A stretch of 64,000 nucleotides of DNA from Nonlabens arenilitoris (GTDB lineage: Bacteria; Bacteroidota; Bacteroidia; Flavobacteriales; Flavobacteriaceae), in assembly GCF_002954765.1 (NCBI RefSeq), contig NZ_MTPW01000001.1, forward strand, positions 2,245,501 to 2,309,500, read 5' to 3'. Under the pieces are notes generated by a model that was not told where the DNA came from, did no database searches, and was given only the letters and a program-made list of their open reading frames with translations. Shown piece by piece: positions 2-58,702 of the stretch (position 1 is the first letter of the stretch; each line of letters starts with the position of its first letter). The position numbers were made by a program, and so were the translations under genes.

Positions 2-136
2 AGTCGTGTTTATCTTGGAGTACATTATCCTGGAGATGTTTTGATGGGTATGTTTATGGGGACTGTTATAGGGTGGCTATGTTATCGATTATACGCTTTC
101 GCGAAAGCGAAATATACACCAGCTTCTTCTTCTTGA
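2..136 (+). CDS. PAP2-family phosphatase, C-terminal fragment (start lies before the window)
   Basis: An open frame runs in from the left edge and ends at TGA 134-136, giving the last 44 residues. It opens with SRVYLGVHYPGDVLMG, which matches the third catalytic motif of PAP2 (type 2 phosphatidic acid phosphatase) enzymes, including the conserved His and Asp. A hydrophobic helix follows (MFMGTVIGWLCYRLY). These are integral membrane enzymes that dephosphorylate lipid phosphates or undecaprenyl pyrophosphate; the substrate cannot be told from this part. The tail AFAKAKYTPASSS is partly encoded by a copy of the iterated 16-bp palindrome. Confidence 0.88.
   Translation, partial: SRVYLGVHYPGDVLMGMFMGTVIGWLCYRLYAFAKAKYTPASSS
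94..109. repeat. Iterated palindrome CGCTTTCGCGAAAGCG, perfect copy
   Basis: Perfect 16-bp palindrome near the 3' end of the PAP2 gene, read in frame as AFAKA. One of about 15 copies in the window. Confidence 0.95.
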
Positions 137-149
137 TAAACTCTATCCA

Positions 150-599
150 ATGAAAAAAGATTTTACCTTTGAGGTAGCAACTTTATGGAAGAAAGGGCAG
201 TTTGAAAATCCTAAAACTCATATTTCTCAAATCGCAGGAAAAAAAGATATGATAATATCTGCCGCTCGAGAGTTTAAAGGAGATGAGTGTCATTATAATC
301 CCGAAGACTTTTTATTAAACGCGCTCTCTTCTTGCCATATGATGTCCTATTTCTATGTGTGCCAGCAGTATGGGATAGAGATTTTGGAATATAGTGATAA
401 GGTGACAGGTACATTATTATTAAATGATAATGCTAGTGGTGCTTTTCAAAAAATTGTCCTTCAGCCCAAAGTAATAATTTTGGATGTTGATCAAGTAACA
501 TTAGCTACCAGTTTGCATAATCAAGCGCACCAGTTATGTTTTATAGCAAATTCTGTCAAGTTTGAAGTTGAAATAAAGCCGATTATAGAAACTCGTTAA
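150..599 (+). CDS. OsmC family protein
   Basis: 149 residues, the usual length for OsmC/Ohr proteins. The two redox cysteines of the family are visible: Cys62 in the segment PEDFLLNALSSCHMM and Cys130 in HNQAHQLCFIANS. The C-terminal strand VKFEVEIKP is also typical. Known members are cytoplasmic thiol peroxidases that reduce organic or fatty-acid hydroperoxides; whether this one is OsmC proper or another subgroup cannot be decided by eye. It starts 13 bp after the PAP2 stop and may be cotranscribed with it. ATG start; no clear Shine-Dalgarno sequence. Confidence 0.88.
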   Translation: MKKDFTFEVATLWKKGQFENPKTHISQIAGKKDMIISAAREFKGDECHYNPEDFLLNALSSCHMMSYFYVCQQYGIEILEYSDKVTGTLLLNDNASGAFQKIVLQPKVIILDVDQVTLATSLHNQAHQLCFIANSVKFEVEIKPIIETR

Positions 600-698
600 C
601 ATTTTTTTAAGAGCTCATTAAACTTTTAGATTTTTTAATAGTCTAAGTTTTAAATTAATAAACAGTGCTTTAAATGAAAGCGCATAACTCTTAAATGT

Positions 699-2773: not shown

Positions 2774-2780
2774 GAGGTTT

Positions 2781-3404: not shown

Positions 3405-3552
3405 TAATATTTTTAATGTGTCAGTATACAACGTGTTAGGACAGTTAACAGATGATTAGCTGCCTTATTTTAATCATGCAATAATAAACAAAATACAGGT
3501 CTATGCTTGTGGACAGTTCAAGCATTGAATGATTTTTATATCATAAAAAGAT

Positions 3553-6199: not shown

Positions 6200-8059
6200 C
6201 TAATCCATTCTCAATAGCTCATCCACCGTATTTGCCGTGACACTGTGGTAGTTGCCTCTTGCGGTTTTATAAATTTCTTTGGCTTCTTCTATTCGTTCCG
6301 CTTTCGCGAAAGCGGAAAATAAAGTAGTTACATACCAGCGACGTCCTACCGTATTTAAAAACTCAGCGATTTTTGTGTCGACATTGTTGTCATGGTAATT
6401 GTTCAAAATAGATTGCTCATACCAAACCATGGTGATGTAAGAATTGGTTGAATTGGTAAAGTCAAAGATGTTATCCAATTGTTGCATTTGCGCAGCAGAA
6501 ATGTCGGTTGGAAAATTACGAATGAAGTGCACCCATTCTTGTGGTGTCCAGTTTGCTGTTGCAGCCACATCGATCTCGTTAGTGGCAATAAAGTCATTCA
6601 ATGTTTTTTCTACGTTTGTGAAAGCGTCCGATTGAATAACGGCAGCGTTATCAGGAATTCCAGGCTGGTAAATCCATTCCTCAGTATTGAACGTGATGTT
6701 GTTTTTCTCTAGCAAATTCTCGTTGAGGTAAGTGATAAAATCTTCAGTGTTTGTGGTAGAAAAGGCATTCTTTTTAAAATAGGATTTTAAGAATGTATCC
6801 ATGTTGTCACGTCCTACTTTTTCTTCTAAAGTTCTTAAAAATAAATAGCCTTTATCATAAGCGATGCTGTTCATTCCATCATCTGGATTACGACCTTTTA
6901 GATCCAGTTTTAGTTTGGTGTCATTAGGAGTTTCTTTCATTCCTTCTATTTCATCTTCAAGATCTTGTCTACCTATTAAGGCGAGCATATTAGCACGGTC
7001 TTTTCCGTATAATGCTTCCATAATGCGGATTTCAAAATAAACGGTAAAACCTTCATTAAGCCAGAAATCATTCCATGTTGCATTGGTCACCAAATTACCA
7101 GACCAAGAATGAGCCAACTCATGTGCCACAAGAGATGTCAAACTCTTATCGCCTGCAATAACCGTAGGAGTTGCAAAGGTCAATCGCGGATTCTCCATTC
7201 CACCGAAAGGAAAACTAGGTGGCAACACAATCACATCAAACTGTTCCCAGTCGTAATCTCCATATAGATTCTCTGCTGCAACAACCATTTTTTCCATATC
7301 TGAGAATTCTTCATGGACTTTTGCAAGCATGGACTTCTCGGCATAAACACCAGTACGTTCACTTATCTCTTTGTATTCTATATCTCCTACAGCAAGAGCA
7401 ATTAGATAAGCCGGAATAGGCTGTACCATTTTGAAATTGTAAACACCATTTTTATTCTTTTCCTTAGGATTCTCCGCACTCATTACAGCCATCAATTCTT
7501 GAGGAACTTTTACAGTCGCATCATAAGTAATACGTATTTGCGGACTATCCTGAATAGGAATCCATGTGCGTGTCAATATAGCCTGACCTTGTGTAAATAA
7601 AAACGGATGGGCCTTGTCTGCCGTTTGTTGAGCAGTGAGCCATTGTAAGGCTTCTGTTTTTGCCGTGGTAGAGTAGGTGATGGCTATTTGCTTAGTGTCA
7701 TCTTTAATTTGAATAGTCAAAGGTTGCCCTAATGATTCATCAAATTCACCCAACTCAAATTCAGTTGTTTCGCCATTTTGAGTAACTCGTTCAATTTCTA
7801 AAAATTTACTGTCTAGAATAATTGTTTTTGAGCCATTATTCTTAATATCATAAGTTGCGGTACCGCTTATCAATTGGCTTTCAAAATCTACATTGATGTC
7901 CAAATCTAGGTGTTTTATTATCGCATCATTAGGTTGTGCGTAGGAATGTGGTTCTTCTGTGTAGGGTTTAGAAGCTATTTCAGATTCAGTTTGTTTTTTT
8001 TCTTGGCAACTTGTTAAGATGATGACTATCGCTAGAAAAAGGAAAGCACTTTTTTTCAT
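6200..8059 (-). CDS. M1 family metallopeptidase (aminopeptidase) lipoprotein
   Basis: 619 residues from ATG 8059, chosen because it opens a lipoprotein signal peptide (MKKSAFLFLAIVIILTSC); an open frame to 8143 only adds a poor leader. Gluzincin signature: GGMENP substrate-binding loop, then HELAH near residue 312 and NEGFTVY 19 residues later, giving the zinc ligands and catalytic Glu. A C-terminal helical region follows, as in leukotriene A4 hydrolase-type M1 enzymes. It probably removes N-terminal residues from peptides in the periplasm or at the cell surface. The segment SAFAKAE near the C-terminus is encoded by an iterated palindrome. Confidence 0.93.
   Translation of the reverse strand: MKKSAFLFLAIVIILTSCQEKKQTESEIASKPYTEEPHSYAQPNDAIIKHLDLDINVDFESQLISGTATYDIKNNGSKTIILDSKFLEIERVTQNGETTEFELGEFDESLGQPLTIQIKDDTKQIAITYSTTAKTEALQWLTAQQTADKAHPFLFTQGQAILTRTWIPIQDSPQIRITYDATVKVPQELMAVMSAENPKEKNKNGVYNFKMVQPIPAYLIALAVGDIEYKEISERTGVYAEKSMLAKVHEEFSDMEKMVVAAENLYGDYDWEQFDVIVLPPSFPFGGMENPRLTFATPTVIAGDKSLTSLVAHELAHSWSGNLVTNATWNDFWLNEGFTVYFEIRIMEALYGKDRANMLALIGRQDLEDEIEGMKETPNDTKLKLDLKGRNPDDGMNSIAYDKGYLFLRTLEEKVGRDNMDTFLKSYFKKNAFSTTNTEDFITYLNENLLEKNNITFNTEEWIYQPGIPDNAAVIQSDAFTNVEKTLNDFIATNEIDVAATANWTPQEWVHFIRNFPTDISAAQMQQLDNIFDFTNSTNSYITMVWYEQSILNNYHDNNVDTKIAEFLNTVGRRWYVTTLFSAFAKAERIEEAKEIYKTARGNYHSVTANTVDELLRMD
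6299..6314. repeat. Iterated palindrome, perfect copy
   Basis: CGCTTTCGCGAAAGCG inside the M1 peptidase gene, read as AFAKA close to the C-terminus. Confidence 0.95.
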
Positions 8060-8224
8060 GTGTGGGATTTTGATAGTGCTAAGATAAGATTCTGTTGTTT
8101 GAAAAAAGTAATGTCGCATTAACAACGCTAAGTTTGTGGGCACGCGTTGTAAACGCTCGCTATTCTGGGTTTGAGAATGATTATAGAGTTACTTAATTAC
8201 TATGAAAACCTATTGAAATTAAAT

Positions 8225-9157: not shown

Positions 9158-10171
9158 TCACAACCCCAACAATTCCCCAGCCGCGTCAAAAGGACTTTTC
9201 TTTTTACTTAAAACTTCCTGTTCTAGTACAGCGAGTTTTGCAATCACTTCTGGTCGGTTATAGAAATTAGTTTTGATAGCGTCTTCTATGGTCTGATGGA
9301 ACCAGTACAATTCTTGTGCGTTGCGTTTATTGGTAAAGCTTTGGTTATCGGTAGCGTGTGTTTTATAGTTGTCAATTTCTTCTATGACTTCTGTAATTCC
9401 TACACCATTTAATCCACTACAAGTCAGTACTTGTGTAGGCCAGCCGTGGTCTTTTTGTGGCATGAGGTGAACAGCGTTTTTGAATTCGCGTCTTGCGTGC
9501 TTTGCGGCGGTTTGATTCTCGCCATCGGCTTTATTGATGATGATGGCATCAGCCATTTCCATAATGCCGCGTTTTATGCCTTGTAAATCGTCGCCAGCGC
9601 CAGCGAGTTTGAGTAATAAGAAAAAGTCGGTCATGGAATGGACTGCGGTCTCGCTCTGTCCTACGCCTACGGTTTCTACAATGATAAAATCATATCCTGC
9701 GGCCTCACATAAAATAATCGCCTCGCGTGTTTTGCGTGCCACGCCGCCTAATGTTGTTCCTGCTGGGCTAGGTCTTATGAAGGCTCGGTCGCTTTTGACC
9801 AATTCTTCCATGCGTGTTTTGTCACCCAAAATACTGCCTCGTGAGATATTGCTCGATGGATCTATGGCAAGTACGGCGACTTTTTTACCGCGTTCTATGA
9901 GTTGTCTTCCCAGCGATTCTATAAAGGTAGATTTTCCCACACCTGGTACACCAGTAATTCCTAATCTAAAGGATTTTCCAGACTCTGTTAAGGCTTGTTT
10001 TATAATCGCTTTCGCGAAAGCGGAATCACCACTAGCGGTACTTTCTACCAGAGTTATCGCACGACTTAACGCACTTACCTGACCAGCAAGTAAGTCCTTA
10101 AAAAGTGAATCGACATCAACAGTTCCTTTCTTACGTCGTGCTCGAGGATTTATATGTGAATTAGTGACCAA
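9158..10171 (-). CDS. meaB: MeaB/ArgK family GTPase, methylmalonyl-CoA mutase chaperone
   Basis: 337 residues. G1/Walker A GVPGVGKST at 74-82; base-recognition motif NKAD near 212; also IDPSSNISRGSILGDKTRM and PSPAGTTLGGVARKT, all conserved in MeaB. The family loads and protects the B12 cofactor of methylmalonyl-CoA mutase. The start is TTG 10171, directly after the TAA of the upstream gene and in the same frame; no ATG is available before residue 120. Residues 51-55 (AFAKA) come from an iterated palindrome. The cobalamin adenosyltransferase at 14794 serves the same enzyme. Confidence 0.92.
   Translation of the reverse strand: MVTNSHINPRARRKKGTVDVDSLFKDLLAGQVSALSRAITLVESTASGDSAFAKAIIKQALTESGKSFRLGITGVPGVGKSTFIESLGRQLIERGKKVAVLAIDPSSNISRGSILGDKTRMEELVKSDRAFIRPSPAGTTLGGVARKTREAIILCEAAGYDFIIVETVGVGQSETAVHSMTDFFLLLKLAGAGDDLQGIKRGIMEMADAIIINKADGENQTAAKHARREFKNAVHLMPQKDHGWPTQVLTCSGLNGVGITEVIEEIDNYKTHATDNQSFTNKRNAQELYWFHQTIEDAIKTNFYNRPEVIAKLAVLEQEVLSKKKSPFDAAGELLGL
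10007..10022. repeat. Iterated palindrome, perfect copy
   Basis: CGCTTTCGCGAAAGCG inside meaB, read as AFAKA ahead of the G domain. Confidence 0.95.
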
Positions 10172-10866: not shown

Positions 10867-10873
10867 AAATTAT

Positions 10874-10889
10874 CTTTTCGCGTAAGCGT
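10874..10889. repeat. Iterated palindrome, degenerate copy
   Basis: A TTTTCGCGTAAGCG variant between the secA stop and its terminator. One of the few copies outside a coding region. Confidence 0.6.
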
Positions 10890-16868: not shown

Positions 16869-17834
16869 TTATAAAATTCCTTCTCTAATTAAATCATGTA
16901 TATGTACCACTCCAGCATAGCCGTTATCATCTACAGCAACTAGTTGAGAAACATTATACTCTTCCATTACCTCACGTGCTTGCACAGCCATATCGTCTGC
17001 AGCGATGGTTTTAGGTGATGTAGTCATAATGTCTGCAGCGGTAAGGCTGTCTATGTCTTTACCTGTGGAAAGCATACGTCTTAAGTCTCCATCAGTTATG
17101 ATGCCTGTTAACTTAGAGTCGTCTACAACCACGGTCATACCTAGTCGGTTTTCTGATATGTTGACAATCACCTCTCTTAGTGAACTTGTAGAGCTTACTT
17201 GAGGTTTTGTGTTTTGTTCAATAAGTTCTTGAACTCTCAAATATAATTTTTTGCCCAACGCGCCACCAGGATGATAGCGAGCAAAATCTTTATCTGTAAA
17301 TCCTTTTAGTTCTAATAAACAAATAGCTAGTGCATCACCTACTACTAGTTGTGCTGTAGTACTAGTTGTAGGAGCAAGTCCATTAGGACAAGCCTCTTCT
17401 TCTATAGGTGCGTGTAGTACAAAATCTGCTTCTTTACCTAAAAATGAGTCTCTATGACTAGTAATAGCGATTAATTTATTTTCAAAATTTTTAATTAAAG
17501 GAACTAAAACTTTAATCTCTGGAGTGTTTCCACTTTTTGAAATACAGATCACAACATCATTTTTTTGAATAATCCCTAGATCTCCATGTATCGCATCTGC
17601 CGCATGCATAAAAATAGCAGGTGTGCCTGTCGAATTCATTGTGGCTACAATCTTCATCGCTATTATGGCACTTTTACCTATACCAGTAATAATGACTCTA
17701 CCTTGAGCAGTGTGGATATGATTTACCGCTTTCGCGAAAGCGGAATCCAAACTATTTTCAAGGTTTTTAACGGCCGCAGACTCTATACGAATCGTGCGTT
17801 TTGCTACTTCTAAAATATTATTCTCAGTGTCCAA
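16869..17834 (-). CDS. kdsD: KpsF/GutQ-type arabinose-5-phosphate isomerase
   Basis: 321 residues. A SIS domain (about 35-165: ITGIGKSAIIAMKI, CISKSGNTPEI, HAPIEEEACPNGLAPTTST) is followed by two CBS domains (about 200-320). This is the layout of KdsD, which converts ribulose-5-phosphate to arabinose-5-phosphate, the first step to the Kdo sugar of lipopolysaccharide. The start is TTG 17834, with no ATG in a sensible place upstream; a TATCTTTG promoter element lies about 60 bp upstream. An iterated palindrome encodes SAFAKA near residue 33. Divergent from recQ. Confidence 0.92.
   Translation of the reverse strand: MDTENNILEVAKRTIRIESAAVKNLENSLDSAFAKAVNHIHTAQGRVIITGIGKSAIIAMKIVATMNSTGTPAIFMHAADAIHGDLGIIQKNDVVICISKSGNTPEIKVLVPLIKNFENKLIAITSHRDSFLGKEADFVLHAPIEEEACPNGLAPTTSTTAQLVVGDALAICLLELKGFTDKDFARYHPGGALGKKLYLRVQELIEQNTKPQVSSTSSLREVIVNISENRLGMTVVVDDSKLTGIITDGDLRRMLSTGKDIDSLTAADIMTTSPKTIAADDMAVQAREVMEEYNVSQLVAVDDNGYAGVVHIHDLIREGIL
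17727..17742. repeat. Iterated palindrome, perfect copy
   Basis: CGCTTTCGCGAAAGCG inside kdsD, read as AFAKA just ahead of the SIS domain. Confidence 0.95.
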
Positions 17835-20270: not shown

Positions 20271-20351
20271 AATGGCACGGCATTTGAAAACTACTTAACA
20301 AGCGACAGCCGAAAAGCTTATAGAGTAGGCAAAACCCTAAATATTAAAGTC

Positions 20352-22161: not shown

Positions 22162-23253
22162 ATGAAAGCACTGGTTCAGTTTTGTAGATGGTTTGTAGGT
22201 ATCCTGTTTATTTTCAGCGGTTTAATTAAATTAAATGATCCTTTAGGATTCTCGTATAAGCTAGATGAATACTTCAGTGCTGCTGTATTAGGTCTTGAGT
22301 TTTTACAACCATTAGCCTTACCTCTTGCTATATTTCTAGTCATTTTTGAGGTTGTTTTAGGTGTCATGTTGCTCATAGGTTTTCAAAAGAAGTTTACGAT
22401 TTGGTCCTTATTATTAATGATCATTTTCTTTACGTTTCTGACTTTCTATTCTTGGGCATTTGATAAAGTTACTGACTGTGGTTGCTTCGGTGATGCGATA
22501 CCATTGGTGCCATTTGAATCATTCCTTAAAGACGTCTTGCTTACTATTTTAATAGTGATTATGTTTTATAACATGAAGTATATTCAACCGCTTTTCGCGA
22601 AAGCGTCCTTGAAATATATCATTTTAGTAGTTACTTTAATTTGTTTTGCAATAGCTTATTATGTGTTAATGCATTTACCTACCCTAGATTTTAGAGCATA
22701 TAAAGTAGGTGTTAACATTGAAGAAGGCATGGCCGAAGATCCTGATAATCCAGACGTATATGCATACGACTGGTATTATACTATTGATGGTAAAGAAGAA
22801 ATTGTGTCTACAGAAGGAGCTCCACCTAGTGGATACCCTAAATATGATAAAGTGGAGCCTAGACTTGTTGAAAAAGGATATGTGCCACCTATACATGATT
22901 TTTCTATTGAAAGAAAGGGAGAGGATTTTACAGCTGATATACTCTCCAAAGAGAAAATAGCTATAATCATCACTTATAACTTAAGCAAGTCTGAAAGTGA
23001 AGGCCTCTATAAATTAAACGCTTTTATAGATCGTGCAGAAAGTGCTGGTTATGAAGTGTTAGCGTTAAGTGCATCCAGTGATAGTCAGGCACAAGAAATA
23101 ATGAAGAAGTACGGTTTTGAAACTACTTTTTATGTTACTGATGAAACGGCACTTAAGACGATAATACGTTCTAATCCTGGTATTATTCTATTAGATAAAG
23201 GAACGATTATGGCAAAATCACATTGGAATGATATCGATAGCCTAGAGTTATGA
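22162..23253 (+). CDS. DoxX/MauE-like membrane protein of the BT_3928 type
   Basis: 363 residues. Four N-terminal helices carry the DoxX/MauE pattern (FVGILFIFSGLIKLNDPLGF, then a TDCGCFGD loop near 110), followed by a fifth helix and a periplasmic region. The C-terminal part (about 245-355) reads like a degenerate thioredoxin fold without a CxxC pair. The family is found across Bacteroidetes; a thiol-redox role is inferred from MauE relatives. An imperfect palindrome encodes LFAKAS. Its TGA overlaps the ATG of the next gene by 4 bases. Confidence 0.82.
   Translation: MKALVQFCRWFVGILFIFSGLIKLNDPLGFSYKLDEYFSAAVLGLEFLQPLALPLAIFLVIFEVVLGVMLLIGFQKKFTIWSLLLMIIFFTFLTFYSWAFDKVTDCGCFGDAIPLVPFESFLKDVLLTILIVIMFYNMKYIQPLFAKASLKYIILVVTLICFAIAYYVLMHLPTLDFRAYKVGVNIEEGMAEDPDNPDVYAYDWYYTIDGKEEIVSTEGAPPSGYPKYDKVEPRLVEKGYVPPIHDFSIERKGEDFTADILSKEKIAIIITYNLSKSESEGLYKLNAFIDRAESAGYEVLALSASSDSQAQEIMKKYGFETTFYVTDETALKTIIRSNPGIILLDKGTIMAKSHWNDIDSLEL
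22589..22605. repeat. Iterated palindrome, copy with one extra T
   Basis: CGCTTTTCGCGAAAGCG, one base longer than consensus, in the DoxX-like gene and read as LFAKA. Confidence 0.85.
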
Positions 23254-39176: not shown

Positions 39177-39353
39177 GAGTTTGGGTTTTAGTTTTTTTAT
39201 TTGTTCAAATATAGTCTCAATTACCACCTATTATGTTTAATGATTTGTTAAAAGTATTAAACAAAAGCTTAAGACAGGTCATTATCAATTTTTATCATGC
39301 TCACTATAAGAAAAATCAACTTGACTACCGCCTTAACTGTAATACAGATGAAT

Positions 39354-39361
39354 TATTTTTG
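39354..39361 (+). promoter_or_regulatory. TATTTTTG -7 element of mnmA
   Basis: TAnnTTTG match ending 4 bp before ATG 39366; supports that start over an upstream in-frame ATG at 39297 and suggests a near-leaderless message. Confidence 0.5.
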
Positions 39362-39365
39362 CAGC

Positions 39366-40544
39366 ATGGCAAAAGTAGTAGTAGGACTTTCAGGTGGAGT
39401 AGATTCTAGCGTTGCGGCATATCTTTTAAAAGAGCAAGGTCACGAGGTAATAGGTCTATTTATGAAAAACTGGCATGATGATACCGTTACCATTAGTGAT
39501 GAGTGTCCATGGCTAGAGGATTCAAATGATGCGATGTTAGTCGCAGATAAGCTAGGGATACCGTTTCAAACTGTAGATTTAAGTGAGCAGTATAAGGAGC
39601 GTATCGTTGATTATATGTTTGATGAGTATGCTCGTGGCCGCACGCCCAATCCAGATGTTTTATGTAATCGTGAGATTAAATTTGATGTTTTTATGGATAT
39701 CGCTTTAGAATTAGGGGCAGATTATGTCGCTACTGGACACTACTGTCAAAAGACAACCACCACAGTTGATGGTAAAGAGATTCATCATCTTATTGGTGGA
39801 GCAGATCTTAATAAAGATCAAAGCTATTTTTTATGTCAGGTATCACAAGAGCAGTTAGCTCGTACATTATTCCCTATAGGTCATCTTCAAAAACCTGAAG
39901 TACGTAAAATCGCAGCAGCACAGGACTTAATTACTGCAGGCAAGAAAGATTCTCAAGGTTTATGCTTTATTGGTAAAGTACGTCTGCCAGACTTTTTACA
40001 GCAACAGTTGAAACCCAAAACCGGTGACATTGTAGAAATTCCAGCCGAAGTAAGTATGGATAAAGCTGCAGTTGTAGAAGATGAGGATGCTATGATTACG
40101 CTTTCGCGTAAGCGACATTATCAACCACATGAAGGAAAAAAACTGGGCACACATCAAGGAGCGCATTACTTTACACGTGGGCAGCGCAAAGGTCTCGCGG
40201 TAGGTGGTACGCCACAACCACTTTTTGTTATAGAGACAGATGTAAAGAATAACACGGTTTATGTAGGCCAGGGAAAACAGCATCCAGGACTTTACCGTCG
40301 TGGACTTTTCATAGATAAAAGCGAGCTGCACTGGATACGTGAAGATCTGGCACTTCAACCAGGACAGACCACGGATGTTATGGCTAGAATACGTTATAGA
40401 CAGACTTTAGAAAAGGCTGTTTTAAATGTAGTAAGTGATGGCGCTTATTTGATTTTTGATGCACCACAAAGTGCTATTTCACCAGGACAGTTTGCGGCAT
40501 GGTATCAGGACAATGAATGTTTAGGTTCTGGTGTAATTTCTTAA
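39366..40544 (+). CDS. mnmA: tRNA-specific 2-thiouridylase MnmA
   Basis: 392 residues. PP-loop [15 protein letters not shown] at residues 7-21; catalytic Cys in [12 protein letters not shown] near 105; second Cys in [10 protein letters not shown] near 205; C-terminal beta domains. It thiolates U34 of tRNA Lys, Glu and Gln, using sulfur relayed from a cysteine desulfurase. An insert around 225-260 carries an acidic loop and a near-perfect palindrome (TLSRKRH). The S8 protease gene starts 9 bp later. Confidence 0.96.
40099..40114. repeat. Iterated palindrome, one mismatch
   Basis: CGCTTTCGCGTAAGCG in mnmA, read as TLSRKR; the mismatch keeps the amino acid sequence. Confidence 0.85.
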
Positions 40545-40553: not shown

Positions 40554-42134
40554 ATGAGAATTGTTTTGTGTATCGTTTTTTATCTCGCTTTCGGGAAAGC
40601 GTATGCACAAGAACTACATGCATGGATCTATTTTACAGATAAGCCTAATGTCACTGCTAGCATAGCGTCGCCACAAAGTATACTTACTCAAAAAGCAATA
40701 CAACGCAAGGCTAGACATGGAATCGCTATTGATGATCGAGACGTGCCTGTCAATCAAAACTATGTCACTCAAATTCAATCGCAGCCAGGTATCACTTATA
40801 AAACACAGTCTAAGTGGTTTAATTGTGTGCATGTTACGGGCTTAGAAACAGATATTAATGCATTGTTCGCATTATCATTTGTGTCTAGCATTGATTTTGC
40901 AGATCCTACTAAAATGACCCAAATCAATCACCACAATAAATTTGCCCAGACGACCATTCCACCGCTCACTTATGGAAATGCATTGAACCAAATTGATATG
41001 ATAGGTTTAAATGATTTACATGATTTAGGCAACACAGGCTCTGGTGTTACCATCGCAGTAACCGATAGCGGTTTTCCTAATGTAGATACTAATCCAGCGT
41101 TTCAACAATTGCGTAATAATAATGGTGTCGCTGGTGGATACGACTTTGTAGCAGGCGATAACAGTTATTATGGTGATCATTTTCACGGTGCACGAGTGTT
41201 GAGTATTATGGCAGCACATGAGGCTGGTAATTTTGAAGGAAGCGCGCCCGATGCGCAATATTATTTATTTAGAACCGAAGACGTTGCTACAGAAACGCCA
41301 GTAGAATTAAGCTATTGGGTTGCCGCAGCAGAACGTGCAGATTCATTAGGTGTTGATGTGATCAACGTATCGCTAGGCTATTTGAGTTTTGATAATCCTG
41401 CAGAAAGTTTGAGTTATACAGATTTGGACGGACAAACGGCTTTTATATCACGTGGTGCAAACGTAGCATTTGAAAAAGGATTATTTGTTGTGGTAAGTGC
41501 CGGTAATTCCGGAACCTCGACTTCGCATCCATACATCAGTGCACCGGCAGACGCTGCTGGAGCCTTTAGTATCGGATCTGTAACAGCGACGGAACAGTTA
41601 TCAAATTTCTCGAGTACGGGACCAACATTTGACAATCGATTAAAACCTAATGTAGTAGCACAAGGAAGCGGTACGGCACTAATTACTGAGAATGGAGCTT
41701 TAGTTTCTGGTAGTGGTACCTCTTATAGTGCTCCTTTGATTAGTGGTGCTGTTGCCTGTTTAATACAAGCATATCCCAATTTAACTCCTTTACAACTTAA
41801 AAACGCTATAGAGCAAAGTGCAGATAATTTTATGACTCCAAATAATCAATTTGGATATGGGATTCCTGATTTTGGTGCGGTATTTCAAACTTTGAGTATA
41901 ACGCAGTTTAAAGATGTAGAATTGAATTACTACATTAATAATAGTAAACAGTTGGTGGTTGATTTACCACAAGACTATACAGAGGTACAAGCTAGGCTTT
42001 ACAACCTTATGGGACAGTGCGTTTGGACTGGTATGCTCGAGAATGAAAAGCCACTTGAGTTGAATTCTTTTAATTCTGGTATTTATATATTTCAAATTGA
42101 AGAGTTGAATAGATCAATAAATGTTGCCTTTTAA
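40554..42134 (+). CDS. S8 (subtilisin-like) serine peptidase with T9SS tail
   Basis: 526 residues. Signal peptide ending AFGKAYA-Q; propeptide-like region to about 140; catalytic triad Asp in IAVTDSGFP near 170, His in DHFHGARVLS near 205, Ser in SGTSYSAPLISG near 380, with oxyanion Asn in VVSAGNSGTS. The last 70 residues (VQARLYNLMGQCVWTGML ... NSGIYIFQI) form a T9SS type A-like sorting region. It is a secreted or surface protease. A one-mismatch palindrome codes for part of the signal peptide. It follows mnmA by 9 bp. Confidence 0.93.
   Translation: MRIVLCIVFYLAFGKAYAQELHAWIYFTDKPNVTASIASPQSILTQKAIQRKARHGIAIDDRDVPVNQNYVTQIQSQPGITYKTQSKWFNCVHVTGLETDINALFALSFVSSIDFADPTKMTQINHHNKFAQTTIPPLTYGNALNQIDMIGLNDLHDLGNTGSGVTIAVTDSGFPNVDTNPAFQQLRNNNGVAGGYDFVAGDNSYYGDHFHGARVLSIMAAHEAGNFEGSAPDAQYYLFRTEDVATETPVELSYWVAAAERADSLGVDVINVSLGYLSFDNPAESLSYTDLDGQTAFISRGANVAFEKGLFVVVSAGNSGTSTSHPYISAPADAAGAFSIGSVTATEQLSNFSSTGPTFDNRLKPNVVAQGSGTALITENGALVSGSGTSYSAPLISGAVACLIQAYPNLTPLQLKNAIEQSADNFMTPNNQFGYGIPDFGAVFQTLSITQFKDVELNYYINNSKQLVVDLPQDYTEVQARLYNLMGQCVWTGMLENEKPLELNSFNSGIYIFQIEELNRSINVAF
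40586..40601. repeat. Iterated palindrome, one mismatch
   Basis: CGCTTTCGGGAAAGCG inside the signal-peptide coding part of the S8 protease gene, read as AFGKA. Confidence 0.85.
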
Positions 42135-46726: not shown

Positions 46727-46909
46727 ATGGCGATGAATAAAAATGGCGTTTTAGGCTGGGCAACTTTAATCATGATTATCATAGGACTAGGACTTATAGC
46801 ACTGGGCGCATTTAGATACAATCAGGTAGCTGGCTATGGATTTGCTGCAGTAGGTGTAGGTTTCTTTGCTATCGCTTGGGTTTTTAACGCGTTGAAAGGG
46901 CGAGTGTAG
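46727..46909 (+). CDS. Small two-helix membrane protein (CAL67264 type)
   Basis: 60 residues: MAMNKNGVLGWATLIMIIIG, a short loop FRYNQVAGYG, and a second helix ending FNALKGRV. It matches my recollection of the CAL67264 family of Flavobacteriia, function unknown. Its TAG overlaps the GTG start of the next gene by one base; ettA follows, so it may be cotranscribed with it. Confidence 0.75.
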   Translation: MAMNKNGVLGWATLIMIIIGLGLIALGAFRYNQVAGYGFAAVGVGFFAIAWVFNALKGRV

Positions 46910-47322
46910 TGAAGGAAAAAATTCAATTTGAAGATCTTACAGCTCTTAAAGTAGTTATCCCTACTGTAATAGCTATAATTTCTTGTTTTGTTTTTGGAAC
47001 TTTAATAATAGTTGATGGTGCTCACTGGTATTACATTATACCAGCATTTATAGGGATTATCCTCATCGGTATTCCACAAATAAAAAATATAAGACAGCGC
47101 AACACTATTAAATTCACAAACACTGGTCTAACCGCAAAATTATTAGGGCATAAAACTTTTGGTTTTCAATTTAGTGACATAGAAAAGTATCAACTGACTG
47201 ATGCTGGATTGATAATTAAAATAAATGAGATGGATGCGATGACGCTTTCGCGAAAGCGTTTTCAAAAAGAATCTCTCACACAATTACATACATTAATACA
47301 ACAAAAAACAGCGCAACTATGA
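46909..47322 (+). CDS. Membrane protein with PH-like tail, unknown function
   Basis: 137 residues from a GTG start. Two hydrophobic helices (about 13-33 and 39-58) are followed by a soluble region of beta character (IKFTNTGLTAKLLGHKTFGF, FSDIEKYQL) resembling bacterial PH-like domains. A perfect palindrome codes for MTLSRKRF. It overlaps the ATG of ettA by 4 bases and the previous gene by one, so the three are translationally coupled. No function assigned. Confidence 0.7.
   Translation: MKEKIQFEDLTALKVVIPTVIAIISCFVFGTLIIVDGAHWYYIIPAFIGIILIGIPQIKNIRQRNTIKFTNTGLTAKLLGHKTFGFQFSDIEKYQLTDAGLIIKINEMDAMTLSRKRFQKESLTQLHTLIQQKTAQL
47243..47258. repeat. Iterated palindrome, perfect copy
   Basis: CGCTTTCGCGAAAGCG in the PH-like membrane gene, read as TLSRKR. 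Confidence 0.95.
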
Positions 47323-49097: not shown

Positions 49098-49466
49098 ATG
49101 AATCCGCATACGGCAGACATAAGAGCTCAAATAGAATACTATGCACAAGAAGTGAGTAGTGGTAAGATGGATTTAAGTGCTGTACGTAATAAGCTTAAAA
49201 ATCAAATGATGGATCTAGAAGACGTAAATTATACGGTCAATAGAGTTGATAAAAGAGCGGCTAGGTTGACAGAGTTAAAAGCGATACATCAAACGGGTAG
49301 AAATAAATTGTGGATAGGGATCGCTTTGTTGTTTTTTGGCTGTGTTTTCCCGTTCATTTATAATGTAGTCACCTTAAATAAATTTGTGATTGCTGTTTAT
49401 ACCTTTCCTTTTGTATTAGGCTTATACTTGATATGGAATGGTCGCAATGATATGGCGAGGTATTAA
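49098..49466 (+). CDS. Two-helix membrane protein of unknown function
   Basis: 122 residues. The N-terminal 70 are charged and helical (IRAQIEYYAQEVSSGKMDL, a possible coiled coil); two membrane helices follow (about 74-94 and 98-115, WIGIALLFFGCVFPFIYNVV). No family recognised. ATG start 30 bp after the terminator; overlaps the convergent MtfA-like gene by 4 bp. Confidence 0.7.
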   Translation: MNPHTADIRAQIEYYAQEVSSGKMDLSAVRNKLKNQMMDLEDVNYTVNRVDKRAARLTELKAIHQTGRNKLWIGIALLFFGCVFPFIYNVVTLNKFVIAVYTFPFVLGLYLIWNGRNDMARY

Positions 49467-50266
49467 TTTTCAAAAATCCACTCGTCCTTATAAAGTAAGG
49501 CTGTTTTCAAATAATTGAACAATACTGGGAAACCAGATTTAAAATCGGCTGGAGATTCAAAGAAGTATTCTGTAAGTACAGATAGAAATTCATACTCATT
49601 TGTAAATGCATATGCTCTAAAGTATTTAGTATCATCTAACTTTTGTCTCACTTCAGGATTCATAATATGTCGCAATATCTTTTGCTCATATTTATGGAAT
49701 CTAGCAGAATCTACATCTGTACTATGTTTACTTTCAAAATGCATAACGTGCATTAATTCATGCAATCCCAGGTGAAGATTATCATTATCGATTGCCATAC
49801 CTGTTAAAAAATCTTCCCAGGATAGAGCAAGGACTTTAGCACGAGGATTGTATTCACCTTTGTGCATAGCTTCGTTAGTTGGGCTTTGGAATGCCTGTGG
49901 GAAAAACAGTACCGTATTCAACATACTGTACAAATAATTTGCCCTGCCAAAACTTAATTGTATCGCTACTGCCGCGCTATAGGTAACCTGTGCATCAGAT
50001 ACTTGATTTTCATATCGATGTCTGAAATCTTTATCTTTTATAAAGGCTGCCATGCGATGTTCAAACTGTCGCTGGTATTTTTTAGATAGCTTTAAATAAA
50101 AAGGATAGGTTTCTAGTAGACGCTTTCGCGAAAGCGGTAACCTGCGATACGTAAATGGCTGTCTATTCCATATAAAGTCTTTTTTGTGCTGTAACCTGCG
50201 TAAAATAAGATGACCAAAGAAAAATAAGAATCCAACAGCAACTGCCGCAAATGCGTATGGAGCCAT
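49463..50266 (-). CDS. MtfA-like zinc metallopeptidase (M90)
   Basis: 267 residues from ATG 50266; an in-frame TTG at 50308 would add 14 residues. One N-terminal membrane helix (APYAFAAVAVGFLFFFGHLIL) precedes a soluble domain with zinc motif GLHELMHVMHFE (HExxH) near 175 and the downstream Glu in TNEYEFLSVLTEYFF. MtfA of E. coli (M90) cleaves peptides and binds the Mlc repressor; here membrane anchoring is extra. A perfect palindrome encodes LPLSRKRLL. It lies just after the Bax inhibitor-like gene, likely one operon. Confidence 0.88.
   Translation of the reverse strand: MAPYAFAAVAVGFLFFFGHLILRRLQHKKDFIWNRQPFTYRRLPLSRKRLLETYPFYLKLSKKYQRQFEHRMAAFIKDKDFRHRYENQVSDAQVTYSAAVAIQLSFGRANYLYSMLNTVLFFPQAFQSPTNEAMHKGEYNPRAKVLALSWEDFLTGMAIDNDNLHLGLHELMHVMHFESKHSTDVDSARFHKYEQKILRHIMNPEVRQKLDDTKYFRAYAFTNEYEFLSVLTEYFFESPADFKSGFPVLFNYLKTALLYKDEWIFEN
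50121..50136. repeat. Iterated palindrome, perfect copy
   Basis: CGCTTTCGCGAAAGCG in the MtfA-like gene, read as PLSRKR just after the membrane helix. Confidence 0.95.
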
Positions 50267-50309
50267 CCATTCTGTCTCTGGATTTAGAACAAGTATGTGA
50301 GAGAGCAAT

Positions 50310-52707: not shown

Positions 52708-52741
52708 ACAACTGTCGATTTATTTGATTTATTAATGGATA

Positions 52742-53167: not shown

Positions 53168-53787
53168 TCTTTAAATTCTGTTATTTCCGTAATATTTTCT
53201 ACAGACTTTCCATCATAGATAACCGTCCATCCCATAGAATTGCTCAAAACAAAAATGCGTGACAGTTCTAGTAATAATCTGTCATCTGCGTTTTTAAGGA
53301 TATCACTATTCCTAATTTGACGCTCAATATCTTTTGATATCTTTTGTTTCATACTATTGAAATCCTTTGCCTCAAAGGTGTTGAGTATACCATTATCCAA
53401 CTGGTAAAGACTTAAATTAGGATTAATGTTGATAATGGGCTCGGGTAGTTTTGAAAAGATGATTTGTTTATTCTCAGCGTCTACAGAGTATTCTAAATTT
53501 TTGAGGTTATAAATGACTTGTGCTTTGGCATTTGAAACCACAAGTGCTTTTTTCTTACTAGCAAAGAAATCCCAGCCATAGGACTTTGTGTTTTCATAAG
53601 TATACACTTTACCGTAATTAACTTCAGTTACTATAAGTTTACTCACATTACGCACTTCTTTTCCAATAAGTTCTGTTTGCGCAATAAGATTTTCCTGATC
53701 AGTCTTATAACCTTTTATGTAGTCATAAATCAAAACAATGGCAAGCATCATCAAAGCGCCTAGAACTAGTGTTTTTAAATTTTTCAT
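53164..53787 (-). CDS. DUF4230 domain protein
   Basis: 207 residues with an N-terminal membrane helix (LVLGALMMLAIVLIYDYI) and a soluble domain: LIGKEVRNVSKLIVTEVNYGKVYTYENT, then YGWDFFASKKKALVVSNAKAQV and a C-terminal helical part. This fits DUF4230, function unknown, possibly periplasmic. ATG overlaps the GSCFA stop by 4 bp. Confidence 0.85.
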   Translation of the reverse strand: MKNLKTLVLGALMMLAIVLIYDYIKGYKTDQENLIAQTELIGKEVRNVSKLIVTEVNYGKVYTYENTKSYGWDFFASKKKALVVSNAKAQVIYNLKNLEYSVDAENKQIIFSKLPEPIININPNLSLYQLDNGILNTFEAKDFNSMKQKISKDIERQIRNSDILKNADDRLLLELSRIFVLSNSMGWTVIYDGKSVENITEITEFKD

Positions 53788-54701
53788 AATTGAATATGAG
53801 GATATTTTTGTTGTAGGTTAGCTAGTGAGTTTTCAATCTGTTCCAGATGCAAATCAACGTTGGATGGTCTGTGTGCGACAAGTTTACGATGTTTATCCAC
53901 GGCTTTCATTATAGGTAAACAGGTTGTAGAAATCACGCTTTCGCGGAAGCGTTCCCAAACCAACTCAATGCCCGTTTCACTTAAATGAACCATATCACGG
54001 CCATAGAATCTATAGTCACGCAGTTCATCCATTACAATCTCATATGCCGGGAAATACTGCGCTTTTTGCGTTTCTACTACCGCTTGAATGGCTTCAAAAA
54101 GTCTAGATTTACTGCGTTGGTTTTCAGTAAATCCATCTTTAATATGTCGTACAGGAGAAAGCGTGAAAATAACTTGAGCTTGAGGATTGGCCTCGTTAAT
54201 CAGGCTAATCATAGTATTTAAACTATCTATAATTTGATTAATAGAAAGTAACTTTTTCTTAAATAGTTGCTGAGATTGTTTATGGCAATTTGCTACAATT
54301 ATCTTCTTCTCAATATGCTTATAAACCCAGGCTGTTCCCAGCGTTATAAATATGTGAGATGCTTTTTTAATATGTTGAACGAGAACTTTTCCAGCAGTAT
54401 TTAGGTTTTTTAAAACCGCATCTTGACTAGAACCGTTTAAATCAGAATGCGCGAGGTAAGAAAAATGAGTATCGATATCTTCTAGAGAAAACAAGTCGTT
54501 ACTCAAAGAACGCTCGATCAATACTAGTAAACTATGAGGATTAAAAATAATCCCAAATGGATTTACGCAAGTCTTAAAGCCGTGATAAGCCATTTTGCTA
54601 CCTATATTTTCTGTAAAACAACTACCTAAAAATACCATAGCACTGTCATAGTTAATGGCAGGTTGTAACGGTTTAATAGGAACTGGTGTGGTAAGTTGCA
54701 T
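53784..54701 (-). CDS. GSCFA family protein
   Basis: 305 residues from ATG 54701; a longer frame to 54728 would overlap the promoter element. It starts with a strand and MVFLGSCFTENIGSKM, the GSCFA motif, near 25; a C-terminal YFPAYEIVMDELRDYRFYGRDMVHLSE carries the Asp-x-x-His of SGNH hydrolases. The fold suggests a lipase/acyl esterase-like enzyme, substrate unknown. A one-mismatch palindrome codes for RFRESV. Operon with DUF4230. Confidence 0.9.
   Translation of the reverse strand: MQLTTPVPIKPLQPAINYDSAMVFLGSCFTENIGSKMAYHGFKTCVNPFGIIFNPHSLLVLIERSLSNDLFSLEDIDTHFSYLAHSDLNGSSQDAVLKNLNTAGKVLVQHIKKASHIFITLGTAWVYKHIEKKIIVANCHKQSQQLFKKKLLSINQIIDSLNTMISLINEANPQAQVIFTLSPVRHIKDGFTENQRSKSRLFEAIQAVVETQKAQYFPAYEIVMDELRDYRFYGRDMVHLSETGIELVWERFRESVISTTCLPIMKAVDKHRKLVAHRPSNVDLHLEQIENSLANLQQKYPHIQL
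53936..53951. repeat. Iterated palindrome, one mismatch
   Basis: CGCTTTCGCGGAAGCG in the GSCFA gene, the only copy read in the third frame (RFRES). Confidence 0.85.
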
Positions 54702-54725
54702 TGTTATCTTTACATTTAATAACAT

Positions 54726-54733
54726 CAAAGGTA
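54726..54733 (-). promoter_or_regulatory. TACCTTTG -7 element of the GSCFA gene
   Basis: TAnnTTTG on the minus strand, 24 bp before ATG 54701. Confidence 0.55.
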
Positions 54734-55029: not shown

Positions 55030-55034
55030 ACGGC

Positions 55035-55343: not shown

Positions 55344-55446
55344 ATAACTTAATCAGTCTGATAAGTCAATGAAACGTTACAAAATTTTTGAGGTTCAGAA
55401 AAAAAAGGTGCAGACTATAGTATACACCTTTCATACTTTTAATAAA

Positions 55447-55992
55447 CTACATCGACCAGTTTAAATCCTGTTCTATAGGAATATTTATAGATTTTAAATA
55501 GTCATCGAGTTTATCGTAGTTATCAGAGGTTTTATTGAAAGCTATCAATCCTCCAGCTTTTATAAATAGAATGAGATGGGTATTTAATTCAACTAATTTT
55601 TCGATGCGAGAAATAGGGATAATTAATTCAACTCCATCACTATTAATTTTAAAATCAGTTTGATTTAGATAAAATATATCTTCTTCGGTATAGCTGTCGC
55701 CTAATTCCTTTTTCTTGTTTTCAAGATATTTTCTATAATGTTTGATGTGTAACCGCTTATAACGTATTGGGTAAAAGAAAAACCACAATATGCTAAATAG
55801 CAATAGTATAATTCCAATCCAACTTATGGTATCATTTATTATAAAAAGAACAATTACCAACGCTGTCCAAATTAATGGAAAAGTAAGTCTAGTTTTTAGA
55901 AGTTTTGCTTGATACTCCTTAGAATGCTGTGCTTTATAAAAAAGGCCTATTAAATTGTCTTCTAGAGTTATTTTCTCCTTAACGATATCCAT
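55447..55992 (-). CDS. YcxB-like membrane protein
   Basis: 181 residues. Two membrane helices (about 32-48 and 54-72) and a C-terminal domain: NQTDFKINSDGVELIIPISRIEKLVELNTHLILFI, the YcxB-like pattern, with a terminal Trp. Function unknown. It follows alaS immediately (ATG 55992 next to the alaS stop), so it is likely cotranscribed. Confidence 0.82.
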   Translation of the reverse strand: MDIVKEKITLEDNLIGLFYKAQHSKEYQAKLLKTRLTFPLIWTALVIVLFIINDTISWIGIILLLFSILWFFFYPIRYKRLHIKHYRKYLENKKKELGDSYTEEDIFYLNQTDFKINSDGVELIIPISRIEKLVELNTHLILFIKAGGLIAFNKTSDNYDKLDDYLKSINIPIEQDLNWSM

Positions 55993-58614
55993 TTAAATCA
56001 TCTCCTTAGCTGCATCAAGTGCTGCCGCAATTCCACTAGGATTTTTTCCTCCAGCAGTTGCAAAATGTGCTTGTCCGCCACCGCCGCCTTGAATGTGCTT
56101 TCCTAGTTCGCGAACTATAGATCCAGCGTTAAGATCTTTTTCTTCTACAAGATTCTTTGAAATCATAACGGTTAAGGTTGCTTTCTCTCCATCGCTTGCT
56201 CCGATAATAAGGAAAAGGTTGTCCATCTCGCGTTCAATTTCAAAAGCTAGTTCTTTTACAGATTTAGCATCAAGATCTGTTTGTGTCGCGATAAAGTTGA
56301 CACCATTGATATCTTGTGCGCTTGCTATTAAATTACCTTTTAAATTACCGGCTTTGGCTTTTAAAAGTTGTTCTATTTCCTTTTTAAGTGCTACGTTCTC
56401 ATCTTGTAGTTGAGCAATTGCCTCAGCAGGATTTTTAGTATTAGATTTTAAGATGGTTTTGATTTCATCAAAATGTCTAGACTGTTCCGCAAAGAAATCT
56501 TTTACAGCATCACTAGATATAGCTTCAATACGACGTATACCTGCCGCAACAGCTCCTTCACTCATGATTTTAAAATGCCATACATCGGCAGTGTTTGGAA
56601 CATGCGTTCCACCACAAAGTTCATAACTATTACCAAACTTTATAGTACGTACCACATCACCATATTTCTCACCAAATAAAGCCATAGCACCATCTTCAAC
56701 AGCGGCGTCATAGGTATTGGTTCTATTTTCTTCAAGTGGTAATTGCTCACGTATACGGGCATTTACAAAGTTTTCTACTTCTTGTAATTGTTCTGGTGTC
56801 ACCTTTGCAAAATGTGAAAAGTCAAAACGCAAACTCGCGCTACGTACCATAGAACCTTTTTGTTCTACATGATCACCTAATACCTTGCGCAATGCTTGAT
56901 GTAATAGGTGAGTGGCTGTATGGTTAGAGCTTGTTCTATGACGTTGATTTACATCTACAGCAGCTTTATGAGAGCCTTCTAAATCTTTAGGTAAATTTTT
57001 AGTCAGATGTACGGTCTGTCCGTTTTCTTTCTTAGTATCTATTATGTAAACAGTATCACCACTGGTGCTTTCTAGATATCCTTTATCACCAGTCTGTCCA
57101 CCACTTTCTCCATAAAAAGGTGTCATGTTAAAGACGAGTTGATACAAATCACCATCTTTTTTAGTCGTTACTTTACGGTAACGAGAGATGCGCACATCTG
57201 CTTCAAGTTTATCATATCCTATAAATTCTTGAGTATCATCACTGCGCAATTCTGTCCAGTCAGTAGTTGTGGTTTCACTAGCAGCACGTGATCGTTGTTT
57301 TTGAGCAGCCATCGCTTTCTCAAATCCAGCCTCATCTAGTTCCATCCCTTTTTCACGCAAGATTAATGCGGTTAAGTCTATGGGGAAACCATAGGTATCA
57401 TAAAGCTCAAATGCCTTATTCCCGTCGATGATATTCTGTGAGTTACTTTTTGCTGCAGTAATCATGGAATCGAGAAGGACTAGTCCTTGATCCAGTGCAC
57501 GCAAAAACGATTGCTCTTCTTCTTTAATCACGTTAAGAATCAAATTCTTTTGTGATTTAAGCTCTGGAAAAGCATCACCCATTTGTTTTGCTAGTGTATT
57601 CACCAGCATATATATAAATGGCTCTTTTTTATTCAGGTAGGTAAATCCATAACGTATCGCACGTCGCAAGATTCTACGGATTACGTAACCTGCACCATTA
57701 TTAGATGGTAGTTGCCCGTCTGCAATAGAGAAGGATACAGCACGCACATGGTCTGCAATAACTCGTATAGCAATATCTTCTTGTTCTGTCTTACCATAAG
57801 CATGACCAGTGATGGTTTCTATTTCACGTATTAACGGTGTAAATACATCGGTATCATAATTAGATCGCACACCTTGCATAACCATAGCAAGACGTTCAAA
57901 TCCCATTCCTGTATCTACATGTTGTGCTGGTAGGTTTTTAAGAGATCCGTCTGCCATGCGGTTGAATTGCATGAACACTAGATTCCATATTTCTACAACT
58001 TGTGGATGGTCTGCGTTTACCAGACTAGCGCCATCTACAGCAGCTTTTTCCTCAGCGGTTCTAATATCCACGTGGATTTCTGAACATGGACCACAAGGAC
58101 CTTGATCACCCATTTCCCAGAAGTTATCTTTCTTATTACCATTAAGGATTCTATCTTCTGCAATAAATTCTTTCCAGTAATCATAAGCCTCAGTATCGCG
58201 CTCTAGATTTTCACTGGCATCTCCTTCAAATATGGTGACGTATAAACAGTCTTTGTCAATTTTATAAACTTCAGTCAGTAATTCCCAGGCCCAAGCAATT
58301 GCTTCTTTTTTAAAGTAATCGCCAAAACTCCAGTTCCCTAACATCTCAAACATCGTGTGGTGATAGGTGTCAACACCTACTTCCTCGAGGTCGTTATGTT
58401 TACCACTTACACGCAAACACTTTTGAGAATCTGCGATACGACTATGTTTAGACTCACTTATCCCTAAAAAGTATTCTTTAAAAGGATTCATACCTGCGTT
58501 GACAAACATTAAAGTCGGGTCGTTTTTAATCACCATAGGCGCACTGGCCACAACCTCATGTTGCTTGGATTTATAAAAGTCTAGGAACGTTTGTCGTATC
58601 TGTTGTGATTTCAT
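55993..58614 (-). CDS. alaS: Alanine--tRNA ligase
   Basis: 873 residues, full length. N-terminal [20 protein letters not shown]; class II core [13 protein letters not shown] segment ([19 protein letters not shown]) and [10 protein letters not shown]; editing domain with [12 protein letters not shown] near 560 and CGGTHV near 665; C-Ala domain with [15 protein letters not shown]. It charges tRNA-Ala and edits Ser and Gly. Downstream YcxB-like gene abuts it. Confidence 0.98.
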
Positions 58615-58686
58615 GTGCAGCTTTAAAAGCGGTTAATGGTAATTTGTTATTTTTGTTGAAATGGAGTAGTTGGGTTGTTGAGTATT

Positions 58687-58702
58687 CGCTTTCGCGAAAG
58701 CG
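58687..58702. repeat. Iterated palindrome, perfect intergenic copy
   Basis: CGCTTTCGCGAAAGCG in the 158-bp divergent gap between alaS and the M23 gene. It is the only perfect copy in the window that lies outside a gene. Confidence 0.95.

Follow-up and report, generated by a model that had tools for sequence, protein, structure and literature searches.

What is the 16-bp perfect palindrome CGCTTTCGCGAAAGCG that recurs through a 64,000-nucleotide stretch of Nonlabens arenilitoris DNA (the window), and for what is it kept? A preliminary description had reported eight perfect copies, and all eight were found in place. Three of them are read in the AFAKA frame, at 6299..6314 in ORF 6200..8143 (-), which is M1-peptidase-like by eye, at 10007..10022 in ORF 9158..10171 (-), MeaB/ArgK-like by eye, and at 17727..17742 in ORF 16869..17834 (-), KpsF/KdsD-like by eye; the 14-bp core is present in 3/6, 17/19 and 10/11 of the respective orthologues. 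Two others, at 30776..30791 in ORF 30691..32166 (+) and at 50121..50136 in ORF 49463..50308 (-), are read in a PLSRKR frame, and the copy at 47243..47258 in ORF 46909..47322 (+) in a TLSRKR frame. The remaining two are the intergenic copy at 94..109 and the copy at 58687..58702, which has a divergent ORF on either side, 55993..58614 (-), alaS by eye, to its left and 58773..59753 (+) to its right.

Seven near-perfect copies had also been proposed, and five of these are indeed one-base variants. Two have an intact core and an altered outer G, to A at 25883..25898 in ORF 25665..26516 (+) and to T at 35785..35800 in ORF 32298..35909 (+), and three have one core mismatch, at 40099..40114 in ORF 39297..40544 (+), at 40586..40601 in ORF 40554..42134 (+) and at 53936..53951 in ORF 53784..54728 (-). 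A variant does exist at 22589, in ORF 22162..23253 (+), but it differs by a one-base insertion (22589..22605) and presents three mismatches when aligned without a gap at 22590. At 10874 there is no match within three mismatches, only a version with four at 10873..10888, just 3' of the secA ORF. This looks like a decayed copy, because intact cores are found at about the equivalent place of the syntenic stretch in 8 of 19 relatives, the match of place being our reading of the alignments. By the ORFs called, 12 of the 15 positions lie in coding sequence, with 94, 10874 and 58687 outside, and not 13 as first counted. The window holds 14 matches against 0.06 expected in shuffles.

The element is not limited to this region. 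The 3.32-Mb genome holds 439 copies and the reversed control none, and each of the 22 Nonlabens relatives (22/22) has between 180 and 737 copies. Beyond Nonlabens, CGCTTTCGCGAAAGCG is iterated in 2 of 393 other Flavobacteriaceae genomes (630 and 153 copies). The range of carriers is therefore wider than one genus, with the same letters in two further genera, and a genus-only range was dropped. In a 464-kb sample the 14-mer core was counted 80 times, where about 0.0002 copies would be expected, a figure that is our own arithmetic from the score of a third-order, not codon-aware, Markov model; with this large excess the palindrome belongs among the highly iterated palindromes (HIP class). Host samples gave 271 cores in 1,264 kb, or one per 4.7 kb, and perfect cores outnumber one-mismatch cores by 271:24. 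No comparable palindrome turned up in two other genomes sampled over 200 kb each, G035 and G037 (the latter partly masked), or in 80 named loci. Neither the 16-mer nor its 12-mer parts occur in the literature collection searched, and papers there on Nonlabens and palindromes looked unrelated, as judged from their listing entries.

Many copies occupy the same place across species. Among aligned site pairs below 74% nucleotide identity, the exact 14-mer was kept in 352 of 421, compared with 1.2% of 25,058 control 14-mers; these figures come from 10 loci, each of which contributes pairs that depend on one another. The MeaB-like locus keeps the core in 17 of 19 orthologues, and poorly conserved cases are secA (3/20) and cluster 21 (1/4). 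The closest pairs kept the exact 14-mer in 14 of 20 cases against 40.5% for controls, a lower share than among distant pairs. Genome count, congener counts and position conservation together bear out the earlier suggestion that the element is maintained and akin to HIP1; of the two outcomes named beforehand as refuting it, a count near expectation and a restriction to this region, neither was seen, the expectation being that of the Markov model. In four Nonlabens samples the palindrome spells 80 of 84 AFAKA peptides and 35 of 36 RFRES peptides, and the 80 loci from other organisms that a protein scan of named genomes retained, none titled Nonlabens, contain one AFAKA. The palindrome appears to be retained for its DNA letters, even where these dictate the protein; the caution for annotation is that in these proteomes an AFAKA, RFRES or LSRK motif is imposed by the DNA and not by protein function.

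Within-genus alignments place the in-gene copies as substitutions without a gap, and the MeaB-like site is likewise ungapped against G234, the one usable MeaB-like protein from outside. In-gene copies thus arise by substitution, as seen at one locus with one comparator and in the within-genus alignments. This bears on the possibility of a REP/MITE-like palindrome dispersed by transposition, which is disfavoured: the many copies, their enrichment outside genes and the insertion of other small palindromes into the element would suit it, but substitution in genes, positions common across species and flanks that belong to the motif make it very improbable. In addition, a search of the Nonlabens genomes for the Y1 transposase (PF01797) found no match in 6 of the 23 that bear the site, namely G001 (86% complete), G004, G008, G009, G019 and G022. 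With this transposase not universal and in-gene sites without a gap, a REP/RAYT element was rejected.

The conserved extent is larger than the palindrome. On either side of the 14-bp core with its outer C/G lie about 17 bp of AT-rich flank whose bias is symmetric. The core carries 29 bits of information and the flanks 10 bits, and coding copies (128) have much the same flank bias as non-coding ones (87). Left-right flank complementarity is at chance both outside genes (0.372 observed versus 0.364 expected) and inside genes (0.327 versus 0.316). Because the flank arms do not co-vary, these results point to a duplex site and not a hairpin; an intrinsic terminator or RNA hairpin was rejected on the same grounds and because 129 of 217 copies lie inside genes. 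Gyrase-like wrapping was also rejected, the AT content having no peak at 10.5 bp. A modest AT-content peak at 11.5 bp was seen from 20 to 110 bp out from the site.

The statement that the copies lie mostly inside genes holds by number, with 129 of 217 sampled copies wholly in ORFs. However, 88 of the 217 are not wholly in ORFs while only 8-12% of the sequence is non-coding, so that non-coding copies are about four-fold enriched; the split rests on our own ORF calls. Of the 88, 81 could be classed by orientation (15 divergent, 13 convergent, 53 tandem, counts without a baseline). By these counts the intergenic copies do not seem concentrated between divergent genes. A transcription-factor operator would be expected mainly in promoter regions; most copies lie in genes.

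Short gaps are rare. Gaps below 1.5 kb numbered 2 against 17.5 expected in G000 (99 gaps) and 2 against 16.8 expected in G004 (60 gaps), and spacing variance was below random in G002 (p 0.004), with p 0.07 in G000. The figure of one per 5 kb is no strict rule: in G000 the perfect 16-mer is missing from some 31 kb of ordinary-looking genes (37.8-69.3 kb), and elsewhere sites crowd together in a few close clusters. These clusters were inspected by eye for a resident regulator gene and held no binding-protein candidate. The trend of sites toward the origin, measured from parS, was weak and not significant (rho -0.37, p 0.11; rho -0.40, p 0.08), and an origin-terminus gradient was rejected; no chromosome-domain pattern was apparent. 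We also observed that parB is not near parS.

Even genomic spacing is shared with DNA-uptake signals, and the main rival to our preferred reading is a palindromic uptake or self-DNA signal like USS/DUS, whereby site-bearing fragments would be preferred and recombination would keep the sites in the population. The sites are numerous, short and exact, they seldom lie close together, their flanks are AT-rich and biased, and they are enriched outside genes and limited to a lineage, all of which is uptake-like, known uptake signals having even spacing and AT-rich flanks (PMC7811141, PMC1939737), and two related Nonlabens phages have no site. Yet the known uptake signals described in PMC1939737 are not palindromes, and the perfect to one-mismatch ratio of 271:24 (for a 14-mer) contrasts with 438:947 for the A. 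pleuropneumoniae signal (a 10-mer, hence of different length; PMC1939737). The literature collection searched has no match for a palindromic DNA uptake sequence in flavobacteria. The site is also present in phage contigs: 20 phage records, chosen for holding it and including some near-duplicates, have 63 cores in 450 kb, or one per 7.1 kb, a lower density than in the hosts. Head or tail genes are found in several of these records, and four contigs carry temperate-type genes (integrase, recombinase, repressor or Mu-like), which argues against uptake. On balance we consider an uptake signal rather unlikely.

Sharp excess of perfect copies is also the mark of HIP1, whose 10-mer in Synechocystis has 5648 perfect and 1830 one-mismatch copies (PMC1939737) and which has been linked to orphan methyltransferases (PMC4390886). 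On this reading the palindrome would be of the HIP1 type and would serve a DNA methyltransferase or a mismatch-repair pathway that recognises an inner motif such as TCGCGA. However, 464 kb contain 85 copies of TTCGCGAA and 80 of the enclosing 14-mer, so the inner motif is hardly enriched by itself, and PF00145 methylases have no match in 9 of the 23 site-bearing Nonlabens genomes, G000 among them. The methyltransferase target listed as a candidate in the preliminary description is accordingly excluded for the C5 type as a general partner, and the footprint of about 50 bp, large for a methyltransferase, speaks against methylation of any type as a likely role. We regard the HIP1-type reading as improbable. 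The element is not HIP1 proper, GCGATCGC, from which it differs in letters and length.

Equally improbable, in our judgement, is a Chi-like site protecting DNA ends from a recombination nuclease, which could work from either side because the site is palindromic. It would fit that the chromosome has about one site per 5 kb and that phage contigs carry the site too, and over-represented oligomers are known to include Chi (PMC4390886), but E. coli Chi is a non-palindromic 8-mer with 1008 perfect versus 8855 one-mismatch copies (PMC1939737).

A ParB-type reader was considered as well. ParB_N has one match in 20 of the 23 Nonlabens genomes and two or three in G015, G018 and G019. Canonical parS without mismatch is present in all 15 Nonlabens genomes tested (15/15), and with one mismatch allowed there are 2-3 matches per genome (reversed control 0-3). 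As most genomes have a single ParB and those tested keep canonical parS, a ParB/Noc paralogue as reader was rejected on this indirect evidence, and a switched ParB, raised when parS was not found in sampled stretches, was refuted by the whole-genome scan.

The reading we prefer, with confidence just short of even, is that a predicted duplex site of about 50 bp, with the palindrome at its centre, is bound by a two-fold symmetric protein serving the whole replicon. The candidate protein would bind the double-stranded site as a symmetric dimer or higher oligomer, use about one site per 4.5-7.5 kb and act in chromosome organisation, repair or maintenance. Selection would fall on the DNA letters of copies both in genes and between genes, with such strength that many positions are fixed across the genus and host proteins take on AFAKA, RFRES or LSRK peptides, and temperate phages and other resident DNA would acquire the same sites. 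While the element and its extent, iteration, range, short-gap rarity, DNA-level conservation and presence in phage contigs are direct observations, we infer the protein binding, the symmetry of the protein and a role in chromosomal maintenance rather than DNA uptake. More tentatively still, this Flavobacteriaceae lineage may use a position-locked palindrome as a chromosome-wide mark, read by a dedicated candidate protein about once per 5 kb and carried by temperate phages to live in their hosts; this would be a new genome-organising or self-recognition system outside HIP1, DUS, Chi, parS and Noc. As a genome-wide signal the palindrome is an extreme case, since it hardly varies, is evenly spaced, runs through protein genes and is found in phage contigs as well, and a binding protein should follow the same odd distribution over 23 Nonlabens genomes and two further carrier genera. 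Such a protein would provide a second tractable system for studying the role of HIP1 and other iterated palindromes.

Among known systems, HIP1 of cyanobacteria is likewise a perfect palindrome in excess, lineage-limited and with perfect copies above near copies, but it has 8-10 bp, whereas the Nonlabens core spans 14-16 bp and biased flanks extend the site to about 50 bp; its inner motif is hardly enriched alone, there is no universal C5 methyltransferase, and its letters recur in two further genera. The USS of Haemophilus and DUS of Neisseria resemble it as evenly spread exact motifs with AT-rich flanks and enrichment outside genes; the Nonlabens element is instead palindromic, has far fewer near-miss copies and occurs in phage contigs, and its sites are spaced about 5-fold more widely than USS, which recur every ~1 kb. 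Chi shares the density of about one per 5 kb, but the Nonlabens site is palindromic, long and nearly invariant. REP/BIME elements with RAYT are also iterated palindromes, and small palindromic elements do insert into the Nonlabens one, but its in-gene copies arose by substitution, as far as the alignments indicate, and the Y1 transposase is not universal. parS and Noc-binding sites are 16-bp palindromes with T-rich and A-rich halves similar to those seen here; the Nonlabens element, however, has hundreds of copies, in genomes that keep canonical parS and mostly a single ParB.

The 16-bp palindrome is present in the window (G000:C1:2245501–2309500) as eight perfect copies and six others with up to three mismatches (0.06 expected), and the whole Nonlabens arenilitoris genome (G000, 3.32 Mb) contains 439 perfect copies and not one of the reversed control. 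All 22 Nonlabens congeners searched carry it, at 180–737 copies per genome, and among 36 non-Nonlabens genomes in the same search only G033 was positive, with four copies. A family-wide search of 397 genomes gave a match in 48, namely four Nonlabens genomes, two carriers from two other Flavobacteriaceae genera (G250 with 630 copies and G234 with 153) and 42 others with 1–13 copies each. A phylum-wide draw of 395 genomes gave 11 with a match, and the palindrome was iterated only in N. arenilitoris, the ten others having one or two copies. Within the window, the only Rfam match over the gathering score was a DUF805b RNA motif at 20299–20331 (+).

In a SecA tree, G250 and G234 group with G188, which has only three copies, near Nonlabens and with weak support, and consequently the carriers may owe the palindrome either to transfer or to a shared origin followed by loss. 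In G033, all four copies lie in one stretch with metal-efflux-like genes (ORFs read by eye) and a long ParB_N protein also present in three Nonlabens genomes; this stretch is probably transferred DNA. Six genomes of different genera (G122, G131, G145, G155, G188 and G352) have palindrome pairs at recurring distances of 933 bp or about 2446 bp, which suggests one shared mobile element bearing the palindrome.

Conservation was followed in a syntenic 20-kb stretch of 20 Nonlabens genomes (12 kb only in one), where the core, the palindrome without its outer C and G, was present in 10 of 27 orthologue groups. It was exact in 17/19 meaB-like, 10/11 KpsF-like, 3/6 M1-peptidase-like and 3/20 secA orthologues, in 10/10, 5/6, 4/6 and 1/4 members of clusters 15, 12, 17 and 21, and in 3/4 of cluster 26 and 3/7 of cluster 20, these last two each having one further core broken by an insert. 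Orthologue pairs, which share loci and are hence non-independent, kept the exact core in 352/421 cases below 74% identity (control 1.2%), 74/136 at 74–80% (3.6%), 56/66 at 80–88% (11.4%) and 14/20 at 88% or above (40.5%). At column 168 of the secA alignment (10900–14298 in the window), the single-mismatch form GCTTCCGCGAAAGC is common to several species and the intact core is found in three others. Only one outside comparator was usable: the MeaB-like protein of G234, which aligned without gaps and does not have the site. The peptides AFAKA and RFRES, which the palindrome spells in reading frames, occurred 84 and 36 times in four Nonlabens samples, 80 and 35 of them spelled by the palindrome; in other organisms, 80 named loci totalling 444,555 residues had AFAKA once and RFRES never, and neither was found in the G035 and G037 samples. 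As a separate observation, GCAATTGC was about three times as frequent as expected (100 versus 32) when the named loci L050–L129 were pooled. The rhodopsin of another Nonlabens genome, G019, agrees at 272/272 residues with 5fjg/5g28, a chloride-pumping rhodopsin of solved structure; we take 5g28 to be the Nonlabens marinus S1-08 pump, and on these grounds the genus is treated as Nonlabens. That chloride pump is described in a portion of PMC4999514.

The core, GCTTTCGCGAAAGC, occurred 271 times exactly and 24 times with one mismatch across four Nonlabens genomes sampled for 1.264 Mb in total, and among single-mismatch 16-mers of the G000 sample the change was confined to an outer base in 19 of 27. 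A base bias reaches about 17 bp on each side, the left flank being C-poor and the right G-poor, with A the commonest base at -4 and T at -2, -3 and -9, and is alike in coding (n = 128) and non-coding (n = 87) copies. The core holds 29 bits and the flanks 10 bits, together exceeding the 12.3 bits needed for marking one site per 5.2 kb. Flanks in G250 (14 copies) resemble those of Nonlabens; G234 has a looser version, with 36 cores versus 12 perfect 16-mers in 320 kb. Pairing between the left and the right flank does not exceed the chance level, and a hairpin was rejected on this ground.

A palindromic mini-element of 20–24 bp, of the CTGCCTGCCGGCAGGCA type, interrupts the palindrome at CGCTTTC^GC, and both orientations occur. 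Among the sampled stretches it was found in G004 at L176:497, L178:~9880, L179:~735, L185:10414, L187:9953, L188:~3415 and L207:17769, in G005 at L202:16824 and in G234 at L422:~7070 and L426:~8605; in clusters 20 and 26 the insert is in frame. Of 11 matches to the motif in the G004 sample, a script scored five as in-site, and reading by eye added two in decayed sites and discounted the other four as shorter chance matches, so that all seven full copies lie within the palindrome. A different insert, GGTCGCTGAGCGGAGTCGAAGT, has the identical insertion point at L199:8257 (G015).

With non-coding sequence at 8–12%, 88 of 217 copies lie partly or entirely outside ORFs (ORFs called by us, not curated), and the in-ORF copies use all three frames, the AFAKA frame being commonest (73/129). 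Short gaps between sites are few in G000 (first 100 listed sites) and G004 (61 sites), which points to a single site serving several kilobases. Site counts per 20-kb segment were more uniform than random placement would give, with p 0.004 in G002 and a less clear p 0.07 in G000. An exception to the even spacing is a group of four cores inside 2.8 kb of G004 (L179:8659–11432), in what is by eye a his operon. Among genes named by eye, those in a 44-kb site-free gap of G000 are sugar-use-like and those in a 31-kb gap ordinary-looking; in L142 (G000:C1:1920001–1940000) a single open frame of more than 6,600 codons fills the 20-kb sample, with no palindrome.

The readings of the palindrome as parS, as a C5 methyltransferase target and as a transposed element each failed a test, as did the hairpin, and what remains is a duplex site that would be read by a putative symmetric protein. 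An operator role for a transcription factor, judged without a gene-orientation baseline, seems unlikely. That such a protein has a chromosome-wide maintenance role is our tentative proposal, which we rate a little short of an even chance.

The main rival is a DNA-uptake signal, which we consider rather improbable and on which phage sequences bear. Twenty IMG/VR records, hand-picked from those behind 41 palindrome-matching stretches and including some near-duplicates, have 1–7 cores each (63 in 450 kb); several other stretches among the 41 are G+C-rich and may be chance matches. Phage structural families were matched by 8 of 10 proteins tested from core-bearing records. A Pfam test on nine proteins, one already among those ten, identified an integrase (L014), a CI-like/S24 repressor (L258), a resolvase-type recombinase (L021), a Mu-like protease (L029) and a depolymerase domain (L016), and gave no match for the other four. 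Temperate-type genes are thus present in four core-bearing records, and this speaks for a role on resident DNA rather than in uptake. No core was found in the whole records of two related phages, presumably lytic, of Persicivirga, the same taxon as Nonlabens.

Our literature search found neither the 16-mer nor its 12-mer parts. Comparisons with HIP1, USS/DUS and Chi were drawn from portions of PMC4390886, PMC1939737 and PMC7811141. Unlike uptake signals and Chi as tabulated in the section of PMC1939737 consulted, where motif lengths differ, the palindrome nearly lacks single-mismatch copies. By the same scarcity, and with the same difference in motif length, the palindrome is closer to HIP1 in that source, and we file it with the highly iterated palindromes, as a new variant.
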